Of a stretch of DNA of 64,000 bases, positions 45,989 through 57,944 are shown one piece after another. Below the pieces are notes generated by a model. That model ran no database searches, had not been told where the DNA came from, and was given only the letters and a program-made list of their open reading frames with translations. Made by a program: the position numbers and the translations under genes. Position 1 is the stretch's first letter. The number at the start of each line of letters is the position of its first letter. Where the stretch lies: NCBI GenBank assembly GCA_021775755.1, contig JAJFHE010000026.1, positions 1 to 64,000 of the forward strand. The letters are read 5' to 3'. Source of the DNA: Hyphomicrobiales bacterium. GTDB lineage: Bacteria; Pseudomonadota; Alphaproteobacteria; Rhizobiales; JAJFHB01.

Positions 45989-46645
45989 ATGAAATTCTTT
46001 GTCGATACCGCCGATGTGGATGAAATCCGCGAGCTTGCCGAAACCGGTTTGCTCGACGGCGTCACCACCAATCCTTCACTTGTCGCCAAGACGGGACGCG
46101 ACTTCAAGGAAACCATCAAGGAAATCTGTGCCATCGTCGATGGCCCGGTGAGTGCGGAAGTTGCCGCCATCGATGCGGACGGCATGGTCACTGAGGGCCG
46201 GGTGCTGGCCGAAATCGCCAGCAATGTCACCATCAAGGTGCCGCTCACGTTCGACGGGCTGAAGGCCTGCCGCACACTTACGCAGAGCGGAACGATGGTC
46301 AATGTGACCTTGTGCTTCAACGCCAATCAGGCGCTGATGGCGGCCAAGGCCGGAGCGACATTCGTATCGCCGTTCATCGGCCGGCTTGACGATATCGGCC
46401 TTGACGGCATGGAGCTTATTTCCGAAATCCGCATGATCTACGACAACTACGATGCGCTTGAGACGCAGGTGCTCGCCGCATCGATCCGCAGCCCCAATCA
46501 TGTGAAAATTTCAGCCCTTGCCGGCGCCGATGTCGCAACCGTGCCGCCGGGCGTCCTGCGCGACCTGATCAAGCACCCGCTCACCGACAAGGGCCTGGAG
46601 ATGTTCACCGCGGACTGGAACAAGACCGGCCAGTCGATCACGTGA
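45989..46645 (+). CDS. Transaldolase / fructose-6-phosphate aldolase family
   Basis: This 218-residue protein is a short-form (TalC/FSA) transaldolase: [30 protein letters not shown], the Schiff-base lysine in NVTIKVPLT, and [13 protein letters not shown]. It takes part in the non-oxidative pentose phosphate route or acts as fructose-6-phosphate aldolase; the two activities cannot be told apart by eye. xerC starts 4 bp downstream. Confidence 0.92.
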
Positions 46646-46649
46646 GACC

Positions 46650-47618
46650 ATGAGTGAAAGCCGCACCGCAGAAACCGAAAGCCTGCTTTTTGCCGCGCCC
46701 GACGCGGTGCGCGAGGTCGGTGCGTGGCTGCGTCATCTGGAAGCCGAACGCCGCGCCGCGCCGAAAACCGTTGAGGCCTACGGCCGGGACATTGCCGCCT
46801 TCTTTACGTTTCTGCGCCAACACCTGAGTGGCGAGGCGGCACTTGCCGACCTTGCGGGCTTGAGCGTCACGGATTTCCGCGCCTTTCTTGCAAGCCGGCG
46901 CCGCGACGGTCTTTCCAGCCGCTCGCTTGCGCGCTGCCTGTCTTCGGTACGCTCGCTGTTCCGCTACCTCGAAAAGCGTAGGCTCGTTGAAAACGCCTCG
47001 CTCGCGGCCATATCGACGCCGAAAATTCCGCATGCCGTACCCAAGGCGCTCGATGAAAGGGCAGCCGGCCGTGTGGTATCCGAAACCGCAAGCTTTCACG
47101 CCAATTCAGAACCCTGGATCGCAGCCAGGGACACGGCCGTGCTGCTGCTGCTCTATGGCTGCGGCCTGCGCATATCGGAAGCCTTAGGACTGAACCGAGC
47201 GGAAGCGCCTGCCGCGACCGGACAGGACACGCTCTCGATCACCGGCAAGGGCGGCAAGACGCGCATCGTGCCGGTGCTGCCGGTGGTCCGTCAGGCGATC
47301 GCGGTATATCTCGCCATCTGCCCGTTCGAGCGCGCCGGCGACGAACCGCTATTTCTCGGCGCCAAGGGCGGTCGGCTCAACGCCCGCAATATCCAGCTTC
47401 TCGTGCAGCGCCTGCGCGGCTTTCTGGGACTGCCTGACAGTGCCACCCCGCACGCATTGCGCCACAGTTTCGCGACGCACCTGCTCGGTGCCGGCGGTGA
47501 CCTGCGCGCCATCCAGCAGTTGCTCGGCCACGCGAGCCTCTCGACCACACAGATCTACACAGAAGTCGACCGCGCCCATTTGCTCAAGCAATATGATGCG
47601 GCGCACCCCAGAGCATAA
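46650..47618 (+). CDS. xerC: Tyrosine recombinase XerC
   Basis: This 322-residue recombinase has a SAM-like N-terminal domain ([18 protein letters not shown]) and the catalytic set: Arg in [13 protein letters not shown], Lys in [30 protein letters not shown], and [16 protein letters not shown] with the nucleophilic Tyr. Length and chromosomal context fit the housekeeping XerC that resolves dimers at dif, not an island integrase. Confidence 0.93.
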
Positions 47619-47654
47619 TTGCCGCCCTTGGTATAAGTCCATTAAGCAGATCGG

Positions 47655-48293
47655 TCAGCCGGCGCTGGCCTTCACCGGGCTGGACGTTTCGGCCGGCTCG
47701 CATTCGAGCAGGACCCAGATGCTGCGGCGCAGCGTTTCAACGGATTTGCGGATGTTGTAGCCAGGCCGCGTCAGAACACCGTAGTATATGCCGTCGATGC
47801 CGGTTGAGATAAAGGCGGCGAACTGTTCCGGATCATCGCACCGGAATACGCCATCCTTGACCCCCCGGCGGATACTGTCCGCCAGAAGCGTGGTCTCGAA
47901 TTTGTAGAAATACCGGATGTCTTTCTCAACCGTCGGCGAGCCTTCCCGCCTGTCGGAGTGCTCGAGCATGATCTTGCACAACCGTTTCAGGGAATCGGAA
48001 TACTTCACATTGATGTCGAGCCATTTGTCGATCGCCTGACGCGGATCGAACTCGACGATGTTGACGTCGGTGTAGGCCTTGGTTGCCTTCTTGATGGCGT
48101 AGCGCACAGACGAATAGAAAATCTCGTCCTTGTTCTTGTAGTAGTAGTAGATGAGGGAATGAGATGAATTGGTCCGGCGGGCGATCTCCTTCATGGAGAC
48201 ATCGGCATAGTCCTTCGATGAAAACAGCTCGAACGCGACCTCGAGGATCTCGTCGGCCTTTTGAGGCTCGCCGTGCTTTCCGCCGTAGTTCAT
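47655..48293 (-). CDS. TetR/AcrR regulator at the end of the ureohydrolase-transporter operon
   Basis: The ATG at 48293 gives 212 residues. The N-terminal HTH reads KADEILEVAFELFSSKDYADVS, then MKEIARRTNSSHSLIYYYYKNKDEIF, a standard TetR domain; the C-terminal ligand domain is divergent. It lies 65 bp after the ABC ATPase gene on the same strand, with no terminator seen between, so it is probably the last gene of the operon starting at hypB. A substrate-sensing repressor acting on the inverted repeat at 55968-55981 is the simplest model, untested. Confidence 0.85.
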   Translation of the reverse strand: MNYGGKHGEPQKADEILEVAFELFSSKDYADVSMKEIARRTNSSHSLIYYYYKNKDEIFYSSVRYAIKKATKAYTDVNIVEFDPRQAIDKWLDINVKYSDSLKRLCKIMLEHSDRREGSPTVEKDIRYFYKFETTLLADSIRRGVKDGVFRCDDPEQFAAFISTGIDGIYYGVLTRPGYNIRKSVETLRRSIWVLLECEPAETSSPVKASAG

Positions 48294-48358
48294 ACACACT
48301 CTTCCATTTGAGAGTTGCCGGGTTCGTAAGCCTCGTATCTGCCCTCGAGCCAATTGTG

Positions 48359-49429
48359 TCAATCGCGCAGCATCACGATGTCGGTCTGTTTCGCGGAAAT
48401 TTCCAGAACATCGTCCAGCGCAATGCCCGTTTGTGGCGGCTGCCGAATAATCCAGCGTATTTCAGGGTCGGATGTGGACACCGCGTGGCACAGGCGATTG
48501 GCCCCCTGAAACACCGCGGACGTCACCCGGACCTTGCCGAGGGGCACGTTGCCGTGTCCCGGAGCCTTGCCAAGGCGAAGCTGTTCGGGGCGGATTGAAA
48601 GATGAACGATGTTACCCGCCTCAGCCGCACCATCGGCGACCAACGGACCGACGCTCGTTTCCAGCTTGGCGGTCTTGCCCGATACACCTGCGACCTGCCC
48701 GTTCAAAATGTTGGTATCTCCCATGAACGTCGCCGCGAAAAGACTCTTCGGCTGGAGATAGACCCGTTCCGGCGATCCGATATCTTCAATGCGCCCATGG
48801 TTCATGACGACAATCACGTCGGCGATGTGCATGGCCTCTTCCTGATCATGGGTGACGTGAACGAATGTCGTTTCGATGCGTCTCTGCAGTTCGACAAGTT
48901 CTTCCTGCATCTGGCGCCTGATTTTCAGGTCAAGCGCCCCTAAGGGCTCATCGAGCAGCAGCACGGACGGCTCGACGACAATTGCCCGCGCCAGCGCAAC
49001 ACGCTGTCTCTGGCCGCCCGACAGTTGCTGTATCCTGCGCTCGCCAAGCCCTTCAAGCCCGACCGTTTCGAGGATCGCATCGGCACGGGACCGGCGCTCC
49101 GCTCTTGCCACCTTGCGCATCGCCAGCCCGAAGCCGACATTGTCACGCACACTCATATGCGGGAAGAGCGCATAGTCCTGAAACACCGTGACCGTGGGGC
49201 GGCGCGCCGGCGGTGTCGACGTTTGATCCTCGCCATTGATGAGAACCTCGCCGGATGTCGGCGTCACGAAACCACCGAGAATCGACAGAAGCGTCGTCTT
49301 TCCACTGCCGGATGGACCAAGCAGGACGACGAACTGACCCTGTTCGATTTTCAAGTCGATATCATCCAGTGCCACCAGCGCACCGTAGGTCTTGCGGATT
49401 TTGGAAAGTCGAACGAGGGCGTCGCTCAT
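48359..49429 (-). CDS. ABC transporter ATP-binding protein (spermidine/putrescine type)
   Basis: This 356-residue ATPase has Walker A LLGPSGSGKTTLLS, signature LSGGQRQRVALARA, Walker B SVLLLDEPLGALD, an HDQEEA switch and a C-terminal TOBE domain, as in PotA-like importers. It overlaps the preceding permease gene by 4 bp. It should power import of a cationic or guanidino compound, judging from the operon. Confidence 0.93.
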   Translation of the reverse strand: MSDALVRLSKIRKTYGALVALDDIDLKIEQGQFVVLLGPSGSGKTTLLSILGGFVTPTSGEVLINGEDQTSTPPARRPTVTVFQDYALFPHMSVRDNVGFGLAMRKVARAERRSRADAILETVGLEGLGERRIQQLSGGQRQRVALARAIVVEPSVLLLDEPLGALDLKIRRQMQEELVELQRRIETTFVHVTHDQEEAMHIADVIVVMNHGRIEDIGSPERVYLQPKSLFAATFMGDTNILNGQVAGVSGKTAKLETSVGPLVADGAAEAGNIVHLSIRPEQLRLGKAPGHGNVPLGKVRVTSAVFQGANRLCHAVSTSDPEIRWIIRQPPQTGIALDDVLEISAKQTDIVMLRD

Positions 49430-50217
49430 GTGGATTCTTTCTTCTTGAACATCAGGGTCGCCGCGGCCGCAAACACCGCAACCATGGAGATTGCGAACAC
49501 AAGCGTGCCGGCGGCATTCACTTCAGGCGTCAGCCCGGCGCGCAGCATCTCGTATATGATGACCGGCAGCGTGACCTCGAAGCGGCTGAGCAGAAACGCG
49601 ACGATAAATTCATCCCACGAAAGCGTGGCGGACAGACAGAACGCGGCCAGCAGCGACGCCTTCATCATCGGCGCGGACACATAGAGCATGGTCTGCAGGT
49701 CGCTCGCGCCAAGGTCGTGCGCGGCGGCATCGATGTTTTTGTGCCGCTCGCTCATCTGCGAGTAGATGACCGCAAAGGCGAGCGGCAGATTGATGATGAC
49801 ATGGCCGATACCGACCGCCAGAAGCGACTTGGAAATGCCGGCCACGTTGAAGGTGATGAGCAGACCCATGCCGATTATCAGATAGGAGACCGTGATCGGT
49901 GCAATGAGCAGAAACCGGGCAAGGCCCGGAAACGCGCCTGGATGCCGCGACAGTCCGTAGGCTGCGAGGAAGCCGAGCAGCGTCGACGCCGCGCCCGACA
50001 GCACCGCCACCACGATGGAATTCCACAAGGCGTCGAGCAGGCGCTCGTTCGCGAAAAGTTTCTCGTACCACTGCAGGCTCGGTCCATCGAACGGCGGCAC
50101 CGGCAGCGAGCCCTCCTGAAACGAAAACAGCACAAGCACGAGCACAGGCAGATAAATGAAGATCAGTGCCGCGATCAGATAAGCCGCCGCCGGCGCGGAT
50201 GTGATCCAGCGGCTCAT
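49426..50217 (-). CDS. ABC transporter permease (PotC-like)
   Basis: This 263-residue protein has six predicted membrane helices and the EAA-loop variant DAAAHDLGASDLQTMLYVSAP, typical of binding-protein-dependent permeases of the polyamine/opine type. It overlaps both neighbours by 4 bp, which supports a heterodimeric permease with the gene upstream. Confidence 0.92.
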   Translation of the reverse strand: MSRWITSAPAAAYLIAALIFIYLPVLVLVLFSFQEGSLPVPPFDGPSLQWYEKLFANERLLDALWNSIVVAVLSGAASTLLGFLAAYGLSRHPGAFPGLARFLLIAPITVSYLIIGMGLLITFNVAGISKSLLAVGIGHVIINLPLAFAVIYSQMSERHKNIDAAAHDLGASDLQTMLYVSAPMMKASLLAAFCLSATLSWDEFIVAFLLSRFEVTLPVIIYEMLRAGLTPEVNAAGTLVFAISMVAVFAAAATLMFKKKEST

Positions 50218-51095
50218 AGCTTGTCCATTTTGAGATGGCGGGCAAACGCCAGATAGCAGCCGGTGACCACGACCATCAAGGTGATGCTCATAACCGACGC
50301 CATCGGGAAGTTCGCGGAGCGTGATATCTGCAGGATGATGGCTTGCGGAATAAGGACTTCCGTGTTGCCACCGAGTATTTGCGGCGTGATGTAATCGCCA
50401 ATCGTGATGACAAATGTGAGGAATGCACCGACTGCGACGCCGGGCGCGCTGAGCGGCAGCGTGATGCGCAGGAAAGCCTGTAAGGGAGATGCCCCAAGAT
50501 CGGCAGCCGCATGGCGGTAGTTCGGCGGGATCTGAATGAGATTGGAATAGATCGTCAGCGTCAGCAGCATGGTGAAGAAGTGCACGAAGCCAAGCACCGT
50601 AGCGCCGCGCGTATAGGCAAGGGCGATCGGTTCGCCGATCAGCCCCAGCGTTATCAGCGTGGAGTTGACGATGCCGTTGTCCGATAAAACCAGCAGCCAG
50701 CTGTACGAACGCACTACATAGGCCGTCCAGAACGGCAGGACCGTCAAAAGCAAAATGATGCGCTGCCAGCGCGGCGGCACTTTGAATGCCAGAATGTAGG
50801 CCAGCGGATAGGCGATCAATATGGAGATCACGGTAGTGATCAGCGTGACTTCAATGGAGTTTATGAGGGCGTCGACCAGATAGTCGCGCGAGAAGAACTT
50901 TTCGTAATTCGCAAGCGTCCACGTTGCCTCAAGGCGCCCTCGAAGACGCTGCCAGAAGCTGACCGCGAACATAACCAGAAACGGCGCCACGAAAAACAAA
51001 AGGGAAAACGTAAGTGCCGGGTAGGCCGCCCATCTTGTAAGGGGCAACCCACCCAGCCGGGAGGCATCCTTGAGTGTTGTCTGTGGTGCCGGCAT
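50214..51095 (-). CDS. ABC transporter permease (PotB-like)
   Basis: About 293 residues, six membrane helices and the EAA loop HAAADLGASPLQAFLRITLP. The ATG at 51095 (MPAPQTTLKDA) is chosen; a GTG at 51134 would add 13 residues but lies inside a strong stem-loop. The protein belongs to the PotB/opine permease family and pairs with the next gene. Confidence 0.9.
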   Translation of the reverse strand: MPAPQTTLKDASRLGGLPLTRWAAYPALTFSLLFFVAPFLVMFAVSFWQRLRGRLEATWTLANYEKFFSRDYLVDALINSIEVTLITTVISILIAYPLAYILAFKVPPRWQRIILLLTVLPFWTAYVVRSYSWLLVLSDNGIVNSTLITLGLIGEPIALAYTRGATVLGFVHFFTMLLTLTIYSNLIQIPPNYRHAAADLGASPLQAFLRITLPLSAPGVAVGAFLTFVITIGDYITPQILGGNTEVLIPQAIILQISRSANFPMASVMSITLMVVVTGCYLAFARHLKMDKL

Positions 51096-51116
51096 CGCGG
51101 TCGCTTGAGTGTGTGT

Positions 51117-51147
51117 GCCGGGCGGCGGCGTCACGCCGCCACCCGGC
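51117..51147 (-). promoter_or_regulatory. Strong stem-loop between binding-protein and permease genes
   Basis: GCCGGGTGGCGGCGT pairs with ACGCCGCCGCCCGGC (minus-strand sense) over 15 bp with one wobble. No T-tract follows. Such hairpins often sit after the binding-protein gene in ABC operons and stabilise its mRNA, so that more binding protein than permease is made. Confidence 0.6.
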
Positions 51148-51163
51148 TACATCCTTGTAAATA

Positions 51164-52255
51164 CTAGGATTGCAGGAACTCGGTCCACATATCCAGCATT
51201 TCTGTATCCATCTCCGCGCTTGGCAGAAGCGATACATTCGATTTTGCCAGGAAGTCCGACTGGTCGTCCCATCGCAGAAGCGTCTTGGCTTCATCGGAAA
51301 GTTCCGCGGTCGAGTTTGCCGGCATCGCCCAGAAGCAATCCGACGTCGCGAGTAGACCCTGCCCCTTTGAGCTCAGGATCCACTTGACGAATTCCATCGC
51401 CAGTTCTTTCCGGTTGGAATTGGCGAGAACGCCTATGCCTTGGTTCCAGATCAGGCCGCCATGATCCGCGATCGTCCAGTCGAGATGCGGATTTGTCGGA
51501 ATGAGGTTTGAGACAGCGAACTCCGCGCCGCCGACAATCACGTCAACGCTGCCGGTGACCAGGGCGTTTTGAACGCTGACAATGTCGCCGACCATCTTGA
51601 CGTTCGGTTTCATCGCCAGAAGCCGTTCGCGGATTGCGCCGAGGTCCGACATTTTGATGTCCGCAGGCTTCAAGCCCATGGACATGCCGATCATCTGCAA
51701 CACCGGGAAATAATAGTCGTAAACGCCGATACGGCCTTTGTACTTTTCATTCCAGGCAATGTCGCCGCGGCTCGCATCTGCCGGGTCGACGACGTCCTTG
51801 TTGTAGCAAAAGCCGTAGTATCCGAACTTCTCCGGGATCGCGTATGACTTGCCGTTAACATGGGTGTAGGGCGCGTTGCGCAATTCGGGGAAAATGTCTC
51901 CCCACGGTGCGATATCTTCCGGCAATTCCATGAGGATGCCGAGATCCGCCACTTGAGGCACGTCGGGCGCATCGATCACGATTGCGTCCCAGTCGCCCGC
52001 CGCCGACTGCTCCAGGATGGAAAGTGCGGTGCCGGTGCCTTCATAGGCCTTGGCGTTTATTTTCACGCCATGCGCGGCTTCGAACGGCTCGAGCAGCTTC
52101 GCATCGACATGATCGCACCACACGAGGATATTAAGCTCGCCTTCGGCATGGCCAACGCGCGGCAGCAGTGTGCTCGCCGCGGCAGCCCCTGCGGTGCCGG
52201 CAAGAAACCTGCGCCTGTTCATTGAACCGGTAATCGCTTTGATCCTGGGTATCAT
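51164..52255 (-). CDS. ABC transporter substrate-binding protein (PotD-like, Tat-exported)
   Basis: The start at 52255 has AAAAGGG 10 bp upstream; ATGs at 52297, 52264 and 52222 are alternatives. The protein carries a twin-arginine signal, MNRRRFLAGTAGAAAAST, ending VGHA-EG. The mature part (LNILVWCDHVDAKLLEPFEAAHGVKI, YEGTGTALSILEQ) is a family 1 polyamine-type binding protein of about 335 residues. It lies 95 bp after the ureohydrolase beta-like gene and probably captures the guanidino substrate. The ligand cannot be derived from sequence. Confidence 0.9.
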   Translation of the reverse strand: MIPRIKAITGSMNRRRFLAGTAGAAAASTLLPRVGHAEGELNILVWCDHVDAKLLEPFEAAHGVKINAKAYEGTGTALSILEQSAAGDWDAIVIDAPDVPQVADLGILMELPEDIAPWGDIFPELRNAPYTHVNGKSYAIPEKFGYYGFCYNKDVVDPADASRGDIAWNEKYKGRIGVYDYYFPVLQMIGMSMGLKPADIKMSDLGAIRERLLAMKPNVKMVGDIVSVQNALVTGSVDVIVGGAEFAVSNLIPTNPHLDWTIADHGGLIWNQGIGVLANSNRKELAMEFVKWILSSKGQGLLATSDCFWAMPANSTAELSDEAKTLLRWDDQSDFLAKSNVSLLPSAEMDTEMLDMWTEFLQS

Positions 52256-52350
52256 CGTTTCCATCCCTTTTAGGTTTTGGTTGGTCGAACACTCCATTTA
52301 AGGCTTGGCCGAAGACGGCCGCGCGGTAGCGTTACGTGCCGGGCTACCGC

Positions 52351-53397
52351 TTACTTTCCATGCTGCCATCCGGCACGGCGCAGCGAATCATCGATCGTGT
52401 TGCCGTTCTTCACCGCGACGCCCGCCATGATGCGAAGCGCCACGCACACCGCCATACGCGACGTGGATCCACTGATGTCGAACATCGGACAAAGTTCTGA
52501 AACCTCGATAACGCTCGGCCCGCCCCTGTCGGCGATTTTGGCCGCAACGCGCATGATTTCCCTGGACTCCAGACCGCCCGGCTCGGTTGCCGTGACGCCC
52601 GGTGCTGCGGATGAATCCATGACGTTGAAATTGAAGCTCAGATACTGCGCGTCCGTGCCGTCCCATACCCGACCGCAGGCCTCGTCCATCACCTCATCTA
52701 CGCCGCGCTCAAGAATCTCGAACATCGGATGAAAGCGGATGCCCCGGCTTCTGGCGAGGTCGACATGGTCTTTCGGATTGAAGGAGTTGCGCGCACCGAT
52801 ATGGGCAACGTTGTCCGAGTTCAGATTACCGAGTTCCGTGATCCGCGCGAGGGCACAGGGGCTGACATATTTTTCGCCGGCCCAGCCGTCTGCCATATCA
52901 AGATGGGCGCCCAGATGCATGTAGCCCATCTTCCTGTCGGCACCGATGTGATCGGAGAGGGCCTGCGTGGCGGGAATGGAGATCGACCGGTCGCCCCCGC
53001 AAATGATCGGTGTCAGGCCGGCGTCAAGTACGGTGCGCACCGCGTCATAAATTCTCTTGCGCGCGACTTCCGGATTGACCCGGGGCATCTGCACATCGCC
53101 GCAGTCGACAGAGGAGCCATGCAGGTCGACGTTGAATTCAAACCAGTAGGGAAAATAGTCGAGCGATGCGACGCGGAACTCGCGTGCGCCATCTTCGCAG
53201 CCGGGTTTGCCGACATTTCCCTCATCGAACGGCACGCCAAGGAACGCATATGTCGCCTCCGCGTCTTCGAGAGCCTTTTTGTCGATTGAGGCAAACGGCG
53301 CACGCAGGAAGGATATCTGGCCGGGAGAGCGGTAGTTTTCAGCATCGTCGCCGCCAAGCGGAGAAAACAGGTGGGCGAAGGCCTTAGCTGGATTCAT
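52351..53397 (-). CDS. Ureohydrolase-family protein lacking metal ligands (putative beta subunit)
   Basis: The ATG at 53397 has AAGGGAAG upstream and gives 348 residues of arginase/agmatinase fold. The metal sites are largely lost: GGDHS is GGDRS (Arg137), DAHxD is GAHLD (163-167, first Asp gone) and SxDxD is SFNFN (254-258, both Asp replaced by Asn). It cannot bind the usual binuclear centre, yet the fold is well kept (FLGVPFDEGNVGKPGCEDG, SAAPGVTATEPGG), so it is not a decaying gene. The catalytic paralogue is 28 bp upstream. In heteromeric metformin and dimethylguanidine hydrolases a ligand-less beta subunit assembles with a catalytic alpha subunit; I infer the same here. Confidence 0.85.
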   Translation of the reverse strand: MNPAKAFAHLFSPLGGDDAENYRSPGQISFLRAPFASIDKKALEDAEATYAFLGVPFDEGNVGKPGCEDGAREFRVASLDYFPYWFEFNVDLHGSSVDCGDVQMPRVNPEVARKRIYDAVRTVLDAGLTPIICGGDRSISIPATQALSDHIGADRKMGYMHLGAHLDMADGWAGEKYVSPCALARITELGNLNSDNVAHIGARNSFNPKDHVDLARSRGIRFHPMFEILERGVDEVMDEACGRVWDGTDAQYLSFNFNVMDSSAAPGVTATEPGGLESREIMRVAAKIADRGGPSVIEVSELCPMFDISGSTSRMAVCVALRIMAGVAVKNGNTIDDSLRRAGWQHGK

Positions 53398-53425
53398 CGG
53401 TTCTTCCCTTGTCTTTCGTTCTTGT

Positions 53426-54505
53426 TCACGGCGTTTCACCGCGGTTGCGCAGCGCCACCGCGCGGGCGCCGAGATAGTGGTAGATCATGTTGCAGGCGAG
53501 CTTCATGCTCATCTGGCTGGCATCGAATATTGGCGAGAGTTCAGCCAACTCCAGCACGTCGGCGCCGTACTCGCCCATGACGCGGGCAAGCTGGATCGCT
53601 TCGCGCGCCTTGATGCCATAGCTTTCGGGGCAACTTGTTCCGGGCATGCAGCTGCAGTCGAGCGAGTCCGTGTCCCAGGAAACATACACAGCCCCTGAGC
53701 CGTTCCAGGCACGCTCGAAAATGAAGTGCGTGCAGGGCTCGATGCCCTTTTCGACAACCTCCGACATCGGCACGATGGGGATGTCGTTGTCGATCCAGAA
53801 ATCCATCCAGTCTTTCGGATTGAGACCGTTTCGCGAGCCCATGTGAGCCATGTTTGCCGCGCTGCAATTGGGCAGCTTCAGCGCCTCCGGCGGACCCGAC
53901 GCATTGGTTATCTCAATGCCGCCCCAGTCGACCGCCGCGTCGAGATGGCAATCGATATGGAGATAGCCCATCTTCGCATCCGGCCGGTGCCGTCCAAGAT
54001 GCTGTGACAGCGCGCGCGCACCGGGGATCGGCACGGAATGGTCGCCGCCAACCAGGATGACCTTGGCGCCGCCCTCAAGACATTCGGTGACATAGTCGCA
54101 GATATATTGTTGAGATTTTTCGTTGTTGCCCGGAACGATGGGAACATCGCCGCAGTCGACGACATTGTAGAATGTCATCAGGTCAACGTCGTACTCGAAC
54201 ATGTAGGGGAAATATTGCGTCGACGCTTCGCGGATGCCCTGAGGCCCGCTCGATGTGCCGGTGCGTACGATCGTGCCGAGGTCCCATGGCGCTCCGAGGA
54301 AACAGATTTTCGCGCCCGCTTCGCGCACCTTCTCCCGGTCCGGTTCGCAATAGGGCGCACCCATGAATGTCATGATGCCGGCCGACTTCACTGGCCCGTT
54401 GTGCCGGGTTGGGGACTTCGTGTGAGCCAGCGGGTCGGTCTCGCGATGGGGACCGCGATGCTGGTGCGGCACGAACTCCCAGGGGTTTGACGCCTCACTC
54501 GGCAT
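53426..54505 (-). CDS. Ureohydrolase-family enzyme, putative Ni-dependent guanidine-compound hydrolase (alpha subunit)
   Basis: This 359-residue arginase/agmatinase-family enzyme keeps all six metal ligands: His156 in GGDHS, Asp185, His187 and Asp189 in DCHLD, and Asp278 and Asp280 in SWDTD. The first about 60 residues (HQHRGPHRETDPLAHTK, then FMGAPYCEPDREKV) form an N-terminal extension absent from simple agmatinases. Family members split guanidino groups to urea plus an amine. It overlaps hypA by 11 bp, and the ligand-less paralogue follows. Dedicated HypA/HypB point to nickel, as in guanidine hydrolase GdmH and metformin hydrolase. A guanidine derivative such as N,N-dimethylguanidine is the likely substrate; agmatine or arginine is less likely. 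Confidence 0.85.
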   Translation of the reverse strand: MPSEASNPWEFVPHQHRGPHRETDPLAHTKSPTRHNGPVKSAGIMTFMGAPYCEPDREKVREAGAKICFLGAPWDLGTIVRTGTSSGPQGIREASTQYFPYMFEYDVDLMTFYNVVDCGDVPIVPGNNEKSQQYICDYVTECLEGGAKVILVGGDHSVPIPGARALSQHLGRHRPDAKMGYLHIDCHLDAAVDWGGIEITNASGPPEALKLPNCSAANMAHMGSRNGLNPKDWMDFWIDNDIPIVPMSEVVEKGIEPCTHFIFERAWNGSGAVYVSWDTDSLDCSCMPGTSCPESYGIKAREAIQLARVMGEYGADVLELAELSPIFDASQMSMKLACNMIYHYLGARAVALRNRGETP

Positions 54506-54929
54506 GTTGGTCTCCCTGCATTTCAGCCGGCGCGCTCGTGCTGCCGGGTTTGTGGCTCTGCACGGAATCCGCCGGCGTGCCGGCCTCCCCGTGCAGTTCG
54601 ATTGAAACGAGTTGCATTTCCCGGCCGGTCACCACGTCGGGTGTCGGCCGCCCGCAATCGGGGCAGCGAAAATTGTATCTGCCGCTCGGCTCGGTCGTCA
54701 TATCGCAGAAGCCGCAATGCACGGTGAGCGGCACTTCCTCGATTGTGAGTTCGGCCCCCTCGCAGCAGGTGCCGCGTGCTGCGGAACCGAAACAGAAATA
54801 GAGCGCGCGCGTCATCGCGGAGAGCTGGCCGAGCCGCACATGCACCCGCCGTACGGCGCGATTGCCGCGTTGATCGGCGTAATCGTCGATAATTTCGATA
54901 AGACTGCGTGCCAGCGCCAGTTCGTGCAT
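54495..54929 (-). CDS. hypA: HypA-like nickel chaperone
   Basis: The ATG at 54929 begins MHELALARSL, with the nickel-binding His2 of the MHE motif. Zinc is held by Cys72, Cys75, Cys89 and Cys92 (CGFC, CPDC). At 144 residues it is longer than usual HypA (about 115) because of a hydrophilic tail. The start is one base after the hypB stop, and the gene overlaps the catalytic ureohydrolase gene. No hydrogenase or urease gene is in view, so it probably delivers nickel to the ureohydrolase. Confidence 0.9.
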   Translation of the reverse strand: MHELALARSLIEIIDDYADQRGNRAVRRVHVRLGQLSAMTRALYFCFGSAARGTCCEGAELTIEEVPLTVHCGFCDMTTEPSGRYNFRCPDCGRPTPDVVTGREMQLVSIELHGEAGTPADSVQSHKPGSTSAPAEMQGDQHAE

Positions 54930-54930
54930 C

Positions 54931-55842
54931 TCAACCACCACGCGCCGGATGCAGTCGGATAGGGGCGGCACTTTCGGCCATGCGCGCCTGTTCGGCCATG
55001 AGAACAATCCTGTCGATCCATCCTCCCATGCCGATGCCTTGCCGCGCAGACACCTTGATGACATCAAGGGCGGGATTGATCCGCAAGGCCCGTTCAACAG
55101 CCTTGTCGGCATCGAAATCCACATACGGCAGAAGATCGATCTTGTTCAGAATGAACAAATCGGCGGCAGCGAACATGTCGGGATACTTGAGCGGTTTGTC
55201 GTCGCCCTCCGTAACCGACAGTATGACCACCTTGCAGGCTTCACCCAGGTCGAACGATGCGGGGCACACCAGGTTGCCGACATTTTCGATAAATGCGACG
55301 CCGCCGGCCCGCAGCGGCAGATCTTCCATCGCATGGCCAACCATATGCGCGTCGAGATGACACCCCCGGCCCGTGTTCAACTGTACCGCGGGAACACCAA
55401 GCACACGTATCCGCTCTGCATCATTGGACGTCTGCTGGTCGCCTTCTATGACGCAGACCGGCATGACATCGCAGAGTGCGGCGATCGATGCTTCAAGGAG
55501 CGTTGTCTTGCCGGCGCCCGGGCTCGAAACGAGATTGAGCGCCAGCACGCCGAGGTCGGCAAACCGCTTTCTGTTCGCCTCCGCGTAGACATCGTTCTTC
55601 GACAGAATGTCCTTTTCGATGGATATCAGTTCCGACGCATCAAGTCCGGGCACACTCAAGCCGGCCTCGTTCCGGCCGAAATGATGGTGGCCACCACTGT
55701 GCTCGTGGTTATGGTCGTGGTGGTTATTGTGGTGATTAGAGTGGTGATTAGAGTGGTAATTAGAGTGGTGATGTCCGCTATTGGCGGCGCCATTGGAATG
55801 TTTGTCGCTGCTGGCATCTCCGCAACCGCAGACCGAACACAT
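54931..55842 (-). CDS. hypB: HypB-like nickel GTPase with histidine-rich region
   Basis: This 303-residue protein has the N-terminal metal motif CSVCGC (Cys2, Cys5, Cys7), a histidine-rich stretch at 24-54 with 16 His, and a G domain with SSPGAGKTT (107-114), [31 protein letters not shown] (metal-site Cys) and NKIDLLPY. HypB stores nickel and uses GTP to hand it to HypA and the target enzyme. It is the first gene of the operon and starts about 140 bp from the predicted promoter. Confidence 0.94.
55729..55764. repeat. 12-bp tandem repeat in the His-rich region of hypB
   Basis: GTGGTGATTAGA occurs at 55729-55740 and 55741-55752 and with one change at 55753-55764. The unit encodes four residues (histidine/serine/asparagine), so slippage would change the number of nickel-binding histidines without breaking the frame. 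Confidence 0.8.
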
Positions 55843-55967
55843 TTTTCCACTCCTCCCCTAGCGCTTCGTGGCGATCTTCATTCCGTGCATCGCCTGAACT
55901 CACCGACAACACCATCGGCAAATTTATTATCTAACATTAAATTACTGTTTTTATTGTGATATTTTTG

Positions 55968-55981
55968 ACTGATTCATCAGT
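55968..55981 (-). promoter_or_regulatory. Inverted repeat at the hypB operon transcription start (operator candidate)
   Basis: ACTGAT-TC-ATCAGT is a perfect palindrome with a 2-bp spacer, placed 7 bp downstream of the predicted -10 element and so over the transcription start. It is a good repressor site candidate for the TetR protein encoded at the operon end. Confidence 0.5.
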
Positions 55982-55988
55982 AAATCTC

Positions 55989-56017
55989 ATTAAACTCGAG
56001 ATCCGGATCGGAGTCAA
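55989..56017 (-). promoter_or_regulatory. Predicted promoter of the hypB-hypA-ureohydrolase-ABC operon
   Basis: On the minus strand TTGACT (56017-56012) and TTTAAT (55994-55989) are separated by 17 bp, close to the housekeeping consensus. The DNA downstream to about 55920 is strikingly AT-rich compared with the surroundings. The 5' leader is about 140 nt; I looked for a guanidine riboswitch in it and saw no recognisable one. Confidence 0.6.
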
Positions 56018-56195
56018 GCACCCGCACCCGCCCGGGGCGCTGTTGCAACGGCGCGCCGATGCATCGGTCCGGTATTGTCAGATATCTCTGGAATGGCGCC
56101 TGTGGATAGCCAATCTTGGCGAAAATTCGTTTGTGTGCTATGTTTTCCCGGCTTGGCTGTATGCCGGCACGATTACAACAAAAGGGAGTCGCCCT

Positions 56196-56444
56196 ATGAT
56201 TAAGCGCTTATCTTTGGCCCTCGGCCTCGTCGCGCTGTCCGTGGCGCCGGCCCTTGCGGGCGGAGCTTGCCCCTTTGGGCACAGCTATTCGCAAACGACT
56301 GCCGAGGCAGAACTGCCCCTTAGCACCCCGGCCGATGCAGTTGTCGAAGAGCAAGCCGCACAGTCCGTTGACAGCGCGGAGCCCGCAGCGCAACCCTCGC
56401 AGACGACCGTGGCCGCGGCGTTGCCTTTATCGCAGCAACAGTAG
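56196..56444 (+). CDS. Small secreted protein of unknown function
   Basis: The ATG at 56196 is chosen because AAAGGGAG precedes it and a clean signal peptide follows (MIKRLSLALGLVALSVAPAL ending AGG). The mature protein would be about 60 residues, rich in Ala, Glu, Gln and Ser and probably disordered, with an ACPFGHSYSQT start and two similar segments (TTAEAELPLS and TTVAAALPLS). I do not recognise a family. A strong terminator follows at 56472, which supports a real transcript. Confidence 0.6.
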   Translation: MIKRLSLALGLVALSVAPALAGGACPFGHSYSQTTAEAELPLSTPADAVVEEQAAQSVDSAEPAAQPSQTTVAAALPLSQQQ

Positions 56445-56471
56445 TCAGCGAGAAAACTTGAGTTGGTAGTC

Positions 56472-56504
56472 TGCCCCGGACGTGTTCGTTCGGGGCATTT
56501 TTTT
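56472..56504 (+). terminator. Rho-independent terminator after the small secreted gene
   Basis: TGCCCCG (56472-56478) pairs with CGGGGCA (56491-56497) and is followed by seven T (56498-56504). Confidence 0.88.
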
Positions 56505-56537
56505 ACCTAGACCATTTCACGTTCATATGGAAACGAT

Positions 56538-57944
56538 CTACATGTGAATTGGGCGACCGTCGACCGCGAGCGCCGCTTCCTTCACGGCCTCCGTTAGCGT
56601 CGGGTGGGCATGGCAGGTGCGTGCCAGATCTTCCGCCGAACCGCCGAATTCCATGATCACCGCCGCCTCGGCAATGATCTCACCGACATTCGGGCCGATC
56701 ATGTGAACGCCCAGAATGCGGTCGGTCCTGGCATCGGCCAGCACTTTCACAAATCCGTCCGTCGTCATGTTGACCTTGGCACGGCCGTTGGCGGTAAACG
56801 GAAACTTGCCGACACGGTAGTCGATGCCCGCCTCCTTGAGCTCTTCTTCGGTTTTGCCGACGGTTGAAACCTCAGGCGCTGTATAAACGACGCCGGGGAT
56901 AACGTCGTAGTTCACGTGACCAGACTGGCCGGCAAGCAATTCGGCAAGCGCCATGCCTTCGTCCTCGGCCTTGTGGGCGAGCATGGGGCCGTCGATCACA
57001 TCACCGATGGCATAGATACCGTCCACATTCGTCTTGAAATGCCCGTCCGTCGCCACGCGGCCGCGCTCGTCGAGTTTGACACCGGCCTCTTCCAGACCGA
57101 GGCCTTGCGTGTACGGCACCCGTCCGATGCACACCAGCACGACATCGGCCTCAAGCGTTTCCGCATCGCCGCCCTTGGCCGGTTCCACCGTCACCTTGAG
57201 GCCTTTGCGCGACTTGGTGACACCTGTGACCTTTGAGCTGAGCTTAAATTCCATACCCTGTTTTTTCAGGGTCCGCTGGAACGTCTTGGCAATCTCAAGA
57301 TCCATGCCGGGCAGGATGCGGTCGAGGAATTCCACCACCATGACCTTGGCGCCGAGCCGGCGCCACACCGAACCAAGCTCCAGCCCGATGACCCCGCCGC
57401 CGACCAGGATCATGCGCTGCGGCACCTTGGCAAGCTCAAGTGCGCCGGTCGAAGACACAATCTGCTTCTCGTCTATCTCGATACCCGGCAACGGCGCCAC
57501 ATCGGAGCCCGTGGCGATGACGATGTTCTTGGTTTCCAGCGTTACCGCGTCGCCCTTTTCCGGCGTCACTTCAACCTTGCCGGCGCCGACGATGCGGCCC
57601 GTACCATGATGGGGCGTAATCTTGTTTTTCTTGAGTAGATAGGCCACGCCTTGCGTGTTGCCATCGATGCCCTGCTGCTTGTAGGCGAGCATGGCCTTGA
57701 GGTCGAGCTGCGGCTTGTTGACTTTGATGCCCATTTTCTTGAAATGGCTGCCCGCTTCTTCAAAGAGTTCGGAGGCATGCAACAGAGCTTTTGAGGGAAT
57801 ACAGCCGACATTTAGGCACGTGCCGCCGTGCGCTTCGCGCTTTTCCACCACGGCCACCTTGAGGCCGAGCTGCGCCGCGCGGATGGCACACACGTAACCG
57901 CCCGGTCCGGTGCCGATCACCACAAGATCATAAGTCTCAGCCAT
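56538..57944 (-). CDS. lpdA: Dihydrolipoyl dehydrogenase (E3)
   Basis: This 468-residue flavoprotein has the FAD loop [17 protein letters not shown], redox disulfide [16 protein letters not shown] loop [18 protein letters not shown] and the C-terminal [15 protein letters not shown] active-site base. Its position after sucB indicates the E3 of the 2-oxoglutarate dehydrogenase complex. Confidence 0.96.

Follow-up and report, generated by a model that had tools for sequence, protein, structure and literature searches.

A conserved operon for the probable import and nickel-dependent hydrolysis of a small alkylated guanidine in a Hyphomicrobiales bacterium

The closest described systems are the metformin hydrolase MefH (also MetCaCb) and the N,N-dimethylguanidine hydrolase DmgH. 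MefH is described as an alpha2beta4 complex with nickel in alpha only and with single subunits that are inactive, and its operon contains hypA and hypB as well as genes for an AcrR/TetR regulator and an NCS1-type importer (Sinn et al., PMC11399263; Li et al., PMC11271267). Deletion of metAB abolished growth on metformin (Li et al., PMC11271267), and where N,N-dimethylguanidine comes from in nature and what it does there are described as open questions (PMC11399263, PMC12508155). In this study, we analyzed a stretch of 64,000 nucleotides (the window) from a Hyphomicrobiales bacterium (assembly GCA_021775755.1, contig JAJFHE010000026.1, positions 1 to 64,000 of the forward strand). It carries an operon with genes for HypB, HypA, two ureohydrolase paralogues (alpha and beta), an ATP-binding cassette (ABC) importer, and a TetR-family regulator. 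We consider it likely that this operon is a complete module for the import of a small alkylated guanidine and its hydrolysis, by a nickel-dependent heteromeric enzyme, to urea and an amine.

The alpha-beta pair and the adjacent nickel chaperone genes

The best matches of both products in the PDB were metformin hydrolase subunits, 8snf_D for alpha and 8ryi_C for beta (Table 1), and each tandem gene was nearest to its matching MefH subunit. Guanidinobutyrase was a far weaker match (E 1.8e-28 for alpha and 9.7e-27 for beta), as was agmatinase, and alpha matched the structure of the guanidine hydrolase GdmH (7esr) at E 2.3e-49 only. In a joint alignment, the six metal-ligand positions read H-D-H-D-D-D in alpha and R-G-H-D-N-N in beta, so that four of the six are lost from beta. 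The same holds across the clade to which the operon belongs (W, described below). All six ligands were present in 14/14 full-length alphas, the remaining two of 16 being cut by a contig end, and the beta pattern was present in 14/14 members; this pattern also occurred in 3/9 betas of the DmgH/MefH clade and 6/12 betas of a further group, clade 2. Moreover, hypA precedes alpha in 16/16 W loci and hypB does so in 14, while L016 and L028 start past hypB. These features suggest that alpha and beta probably form a heteromeric nickel-type ureohydrolase with one catalytic and one ligand-poor subunit.

A first-pass annotation of this DNA had singled out the joint occurrence of HypA and HypB (HypAB) and a ligand-poor subunit. 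Both hallmarks are present, but their combination is not new, because the alpha-beta pairing next to HypAB was already published for MefH and DmgH in 2024. The placement among Mn-dependent agmatinases or guanidinobutyrases that the annotation had named as contrary evidence was not seen, the best PDB matches being the metformin hydrolase subunits.

W, a separate clade with distinct pocket residues and a different importer

We scanned a contig collection of 84,980 species and obtained 35 loci, a number that is a lower bound because the scan required one of two exact peptide patterns. With the operon, a second alpha-beta pair from the same assembly, and MefH, this gave 38 alphas, which were divided by pocket signature into W (the window clade, 16 members), clade 2 (the type of the second pair, L009; 13 members), and M (Aminobacter DmgH plus MefH; 9 members). 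W received a support of 100/100 both in the alpha-only tree (16 members, stem 0.41) and in the joint tree of alpha and beta (14 members, stem 0.39). The joint tree had 32 rows and was built without L038, L043, and L050, which have no beta, and without the near-copies L040, L042, and L045. Clade 2 is a group by signature, and the joint tree gave no evidence of a single clade. The W loci span Alpha- and Gammaproteobacteria; none of 384 further genomes from the class of this bacterium, an even draw from a larger group, matched at 1e-100.

Within M, the L041 locus comes from A. niigataensis DSM 7050, and its alpha has S184 and S288-T289-S290 as published. L036 is 70.1% and 67.5% identical to DmgH alpha and beta, compared with 70% and 68% for the published Hyphomicrobium DmgH, and we infer that it is this enzyme. 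The joint tree placed L036 and L049 with M at a support of 92/96, at a fork that was not starred there and stayed open in the alpha-only tree. The operon pair fell outside the smallest group holding the characterised DmgH enzymes, with W at 100/100. Judged by these trees, W is a separate clade in which we identified no characterised member, and the operon pair itself is, on the same grounds, neither DmgH nor MefH. Our literature searches gave no paper on W with a PotD-type importer; the 56 pairs in the supplement of Li et al. may include W members, and RsMetCaCb may belong to W.

Pocket positions are given in MefH alpha numbering. The W alphas have T80 and C184 in 16/16 members and T288-S289-C290 in the 14/14 with data. 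Clade 2 has Q or N at 80, C184 in all 13 alphas, and T-T-A at 288-290; M apart from MefH has Q80, S or A at 184, and S-T-S; MefH has Q80, C184, and N288-S289-A290. Three of these residues, Q80, N288, and S289, are named active-site residues (Li et al., PMC11271267). With respect to the MefH signature of N288-S289-A290 plus C184, the operon alpha has C184 but T288-S289-C290. Its C290 lies at the alignment position of GdmH W305, which is published as a specificity residue (PMC11410670). On the assumption that GdmH T97 is the second T of GTT, with chain numbers equal to native numbers plus 2, the operon alpha has I there, which leaves I and C in place of the GdmH pair T97 and W305. T80 was also considered as the counterpart of T97 and rejected, as it aligns one residue before it. 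Eight alpha positions are W-specific, and for five of them a published pocket or ligand residue is at most two residues away, compared with 9.6% of 250 variable columns (P 0.0004, for positions chosen after seeing the data and uncorrected for shared descent).

A PotD-type binding-protein gene was found in the cluster in 14/14 W loci that continue beyond alpha (the contigs of L043 and L050 stop within it), in 0/13 clade-2 loci, and in 1/9 M loci (L032). Of these 14 W loci, 12 also had both permease genes and the ATPase gene; the sequence stops within the binding-protein gene in L024 and within the second permease gene in L025. The arrangement is different in L020 and L021, where the ABC genes lie upstream of hypB and the ATPase gene is on the opposite strand. 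The operon is not a chance grouping, because hypA, the alpha-beta pair, and the binding-protein gene recur in all 14 clade loci that reach past alpha. Most W loci showed no conserved neighbours beyond the operon. A gene of metallo-beta-lactamase fold lies beside the W operons of L017 (17112-17858) and L022 (16915-17646), and beside a DmgH-type pair in L029 (3827-4555).

The binding-protein leader, SMNRRRFLAGTAG, resembles a twin-arginine signal by eye. The predicted model of the protein (pLDDT 87.3) had PotD (4eqb) as its best Foldseek match, with a TM of 0.78, and PotF/D (7oyu) as its best VIA-align match, with a Z of 32.1 over 318 residues. All four importer proteins stayed under the Pot equivalog cut-offs (55.3 vs 582 for PotD; the others in Table 1). 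Pro and Gln stand at the positions aligned to Glu171 and Asp257 of PotD, which we take to be acidic contact positions (hand-converted chain numbers). PotF with agmatine is in the PDB, and the PotD/PotF fold can therefore take a guanidino ligand. A "polyamine" binding protein of the MefH plasmid was considered as an orthologue of the operon's and rejected at 20% identity. The binding protein of L032 is 63% identical to the operon's and joins its subgroup at 93/94, and the L032 importer adjoins an alpha 79% identical to DmgH alpha. This occurrence of an orthologous importer beside a DmgH-type pair favours a dimethylguanidine-like ligand, and it is the best clue to the substrate.

Gene layout and regulation

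All nine genes of the first-pass annotation were present in the order it described, on the minus strand at 47655-55842 (hypB-hypA-alpha-beta-binding protein-permease-permease-ATPase-tetR). The overlaps and short gaps it reported were borne out, with +1, -11, +28, +53, +29, -4, and -4 bases from hypB to the ATPase gene and about +65 bases from there to tetR, given the hand-picked ATG at 48293 as the tetR start. The hypA start was taken as MHELALARS; an alternative longer open reading frame to 55124 runs into hypB. The single promoter of the annotation was not recovered: a scan of 47400-56200 gave 4 promoter-like sites compared with 3.6 in shuffles, and none lay on the minus strand upstream of hypB.

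A tetR gene follows the ATPase gene in six W loci (the window, L016, L017, L022, L027, and L028). The motif TTGACT(0-8)AGT was present within 300 bases before hypB in 4/4 assessable TetR-bearing W loci, and in 0/5 loci without TetR, 0/3 loci of undetermined TetR status, and 11/809 background windows. The palindrome upstream of hypB in the window, to which this motif is related, may thus be a TetR operator. It was not found upstream of tetR in the DmgH-clade loci L015, L039-L042, and L045 or upstream of the L032 binding protein, and L029 offered one base only to test. A guanidine riboswitch was considered as the switch and rejected, as there was no Rfam match at window positions 46500-57500. 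In 8 of the 15 other W loci, Rfam gave only a tRNA and a SAM riboswitch; two of these 8, L016 and L028, begin past the hypB start.

Table 1. Features of the operon in the window
Feature	Coordinates	Strand	Evidence
hypB, nickel GTPase chaperone, His-rich N-terminal stretch	54931..55842	-	TIGR00073 277.9 bits vs cut-off 121.2; HypB_prefix_1 51 bits; PF02492
hypA, nickel metallochaperone	54495..54929	-	TIGR00100 90.5 bits vs cut-off 88.1; PF01155
alpha subunit, probable catalytic ureohydrolase	53426..54505	-	PF00491; 63% identity to MefH alpha (plasmid); 8snf_D E 8.5e-162; six ligands
beta subunit, ligand-poor ureohydrolase paralogue	52351..53397	-	PF00491; 63% identity to MefH beta (plasmid); 8ryi_C E 7e-157
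ABC substrate-binding protein, PotD/PotF fold	51164..52297	-	SBP_bac_8; 1pot E 6.3e-16; predicted model
ABC permease, PotB/PotH type, GTG start	50214..51134	-	PF00528; NF007044 167.2 bits, cut-off 348 not reached
ABC permease, PotC/PotI type	49426..50217	-	PF00528; NF007047 150.4 bits, cut-off 326 not reached
ABC ATPase, PotA type	48359..49429	-	PF00005; NF006987 346.9 bits, cut-off 482 not reached
tetR, TetR-family regulator, BetI-like	47655..48293	-	PF00440 (TetR_N) 48.3 bits; 36% identity to MefH-plasmid TetR
palindrome ACTGATnnATCAGT, candidate TetR operator, upstream of hypB	55968..55981	.	single site in window, 0.03 expected

Proposed function and alternatives

We propose that the binding protein and the PotBCA-like importer would bring in the guanidine cation and that HypA and HypB would load nickel into alpha. 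Alpha would join the ligand-poor beta in a heteromeric ureohydrolase, probably with the alpha2beta4 composition of MefH, and this enzyme would cleave the guanidine to urea and an amine. TetR would act as a repressor at the palindrome upstream of hypB, and repression would last until it binds the compound or a product. A urease is encoded at another place in the assembly and could make use of the urea. The leading candidate for the substrate is N,N-dimethylguanidine, giving urea and dimethylamine, or a close relative.

Several points weigh against this proposal. T80 in place of Q80 and C290 in place of S or A are unlike every characterised member that could be placed, and HypAB coexpression is reported to have left MetCaCb activity in E. 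coli extracts unchanged (Li et al., PMC11271267). The second pair in the same assembly means that the operon pair may serve a different substrate; the second pair could itself be foreign, because the assembly consists of 77 contigs with 3.88% estimated contamination. The PF11927 protein, which we presume to be part of dimethylamine monooxygenase and for which a paper search gave no confirmation of that role, was not found in the assembly and was rejected as the dimethylamine route. Flavoproteins of the trimethylamine dehydrogenase type (PF00724; 20 match rows in this genome, of which 16 fall in open frames with a length of 650-770 amino acids) allowed no conclusion, the one compared being nearest to histamine and trimethylamine dehydrogenases, histamine dehydrogenase among them.

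Because the pocket differs, a serious rival is that W acts on another guanidine than dimethylguanidine, such as methylguanidine or an unknown natural guanidine, and shares the chemistry alone. We rate its chances somewhat below even, and it overlaps the proposed function where the guanidine is a small alkylguanidine. The clustering of W-specific alpha positions near published pocket and ligand residues, the alignment of position 290 with the GdmH specificity residue, the long and fully supported W stem, and a second pair known in 3/16 W genomes all argue for it. However, L032 joins an orthologous importer to a DmgH-type enzyme, and L036, if it is indeed DmgH, has C184 and T-T-A where Aminobacter DmgH has S184 and S-T-S, so that a change of signature need not change the substrate. 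Metformin, a biguanide that would yield guanylurea and dimethylamine, is a very improbable substrate. The operon alpha has C184 and S289 as in MefH, and S289 is described as essential for metformin hydrolysis (Li et al., PMC11271267), but C184 is shared by every clade-2 alpha, N288 and A290 of MefH are replaced by T288 and C290, and no codB-like gene was found in the 16 W loci within the contig sequence at hand. In addition, the distant RsMetCaCb (61.7% to MetCa) is reported to lack metformin activity and two others to have about 20,000-fold less (PMC11271267), and the change to metformin has been placed in the genus Aminobacter (Sinn et al., PMC11399263).

An ordinary Mn-dependent agmatinase or guanidinobutyrase fed by a polyamine importer would agree with the PotABCD-like importer genes and with the top NCBIfam matches of alpha and beta, which are agmatinase models. 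Their TIGR01230 scores (124.7 and 113.8) nevertheless lie under the cut-off of 174.3. The placement with MefH and DmgH by PDB comparison and tree, the loss of four ligands from beta, the HypAB genes in the operon, and the binding protein, which has only about 20% identity to PotD/PotF and Pro and Gln at the two presumed acidic contacts, likewise make such an enzyme very improbable. HypA and HypB are maturation factors of hydrogenase and urease, and the assembly has a urease, so the chaperones might serve another nickel enzyme and stand here by accident. We give this explanation hardly any weight: no NiFe-hydrogenase large subunit was found in the assembly, and hydrogenase was rejected as the client, while every W locus has hypA ahead of alpha, 14 of them have hypB there as well, and the second pair has both genes.

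Overall, the first-pass interpretation has held in part, namely for a heteromeric nickel-type ureohydrolase with HypAB, importer, and regulator. Its substituted guanidine is still the probable substrate and its suggestion of metformin is unlikely, with N288 and A290 absent; it had missed the separate clade with its own pocket residues and the second pair. The operon is a real and well-conserved one of a known enzyme kind, less surprising than that annotation supposed, and what is new is W, a separate clade marked by T80 and C290 in the pocket and by a PotD-type importer. That Alpha- and Gammaproteobacteria conserve an operon in which this type of enzyme is coupled to an importer with a binding protein points to a guanidine substrate that really occurs in nature. 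We tentatively suggest that W may represent a further specificity, for a natural guanidine new as a bacterial nutrient, with its own importer and TetR/operator. If so, carriers of W, clade-2, and GdmH-like genes would split the pool of methylated guanidines among three nickel enzymes. The binding protein is a direct handle on the substrate, which a ligand screen could name, and W is a natural comparison set for substrate change on this scaffold, with relevance to metformin breakdown.

Other ureohydrolase loci and comparison with known systems

The assembly of 5.47 Mb (99.45% complete) contains 21 ureohydrolase match rows, one gene on contig C63 giving two. On C63, L011 (73-12000) holds a GdmH-like gene (7esr E 4.6e-133) with Thr at the W305 position. 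It lies near genes with glutamine-synthetase, amidotransferase, GXGXG, and glutamate-synthase domains, which resemble those of the N-methylglutamate (methylamine) pathway, and it is possibly a methylguanidine hydrolase. Contig JABJGO010000013 (L022 and L047), from a metagenome-assembled genome, combines a W operon, a GdmH-like gene, a glutamine-synthetase-like gene, and a clade-2 pair in one guanidine island. In both places the next gene after the GdmH-like one encodes a His-rich membrane protein (L011:2494-3372, L022:20413-21075). The label of nickel transporter, based on an HX4DH-like motif, was dropped for it, as no Pfam model matched over its cut-off and, for the L011 copy, no NCBIfam model matched. 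In L034 (10001-13390), the gene directly after DmgH-type alpha and beta is GdmH-like and encodes Ser in place of W305.

Two systems occurred together in a few assemblies or whole-genome shotgun prefixes, the counts being small: W with clade 2 in three (the present assembly, JAJEAD, and JABJGO), M with clade 2 in two (JAJFHL and VFKA), two clade-2 alphas in one (JAPUJA), and W with M in none. By tblastn, a glutamine-synthetase-like gene was near 8/13 clade-2 pairs, 1/16 W pairs, and 3/9 M pairs. At clade-2 pairs we presume it to be of the gamma-glutamylmethylamide synthetase type, and its presence would fit methylamine as the clade-2 product.

GdmH is homomeric. Like the proposed enzyme it is a nickel ureohydrolase that needs nickel chaperones, GhaAB (PDB 7ESR, 7OI1; PMC11271267), and it has T at the position of W-clade T80; it differs in being a single gene and in having W305 where the operon alpha has C290. 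The importer has its fold and gene types in common with PotABCD/PotFGHI, whereas the binding protein is about 20% identical and the four proteins score under the Pot equivalog cut-offs. The clade-2 pair on contig C57 (L009, 2967-17133) likewise has the order HypB-HypA-alpha-beta, with alpha 66% and beta 71% identical to the operon pair. It differs in Q80 and T-T-A and in its neighbours, an SsuA/NitT-type ABC system, a type-III glutamine-synthetase-like gene, an Lrp/AsnC gene, and a urease operon (subunit and accessory genes, UreF and UreD among them). DmgH of Aminobacter niigataensis DSM 7050, with its Hyphomicrobium homologue (Sinn et al. 2024, PMC11399263), has the same gene order, and the six-ligand catalytic alpha and ligand-poor beta are also common to both, the operon alpha being 63% and beta 65% identical to L041. 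DmgH has Q80 and S-T-S where the operon has T80 and T288-S289-C290, and the Aminobacter loci have HupE and codB-like genes where the operon has a PotD-type ABC importer. MefH/MetCaCb (PDB 8RYI, 8X3G, 8SNF) differs by its Q80 and N288-S289-A290, its NCS1-type importer gene and HupE, and the plasmid location of the copy compared, at 63% identity; TetR, HypB, HypA, alpha, and beta are present in both systems, and MefH is the best structural match for both subunits.

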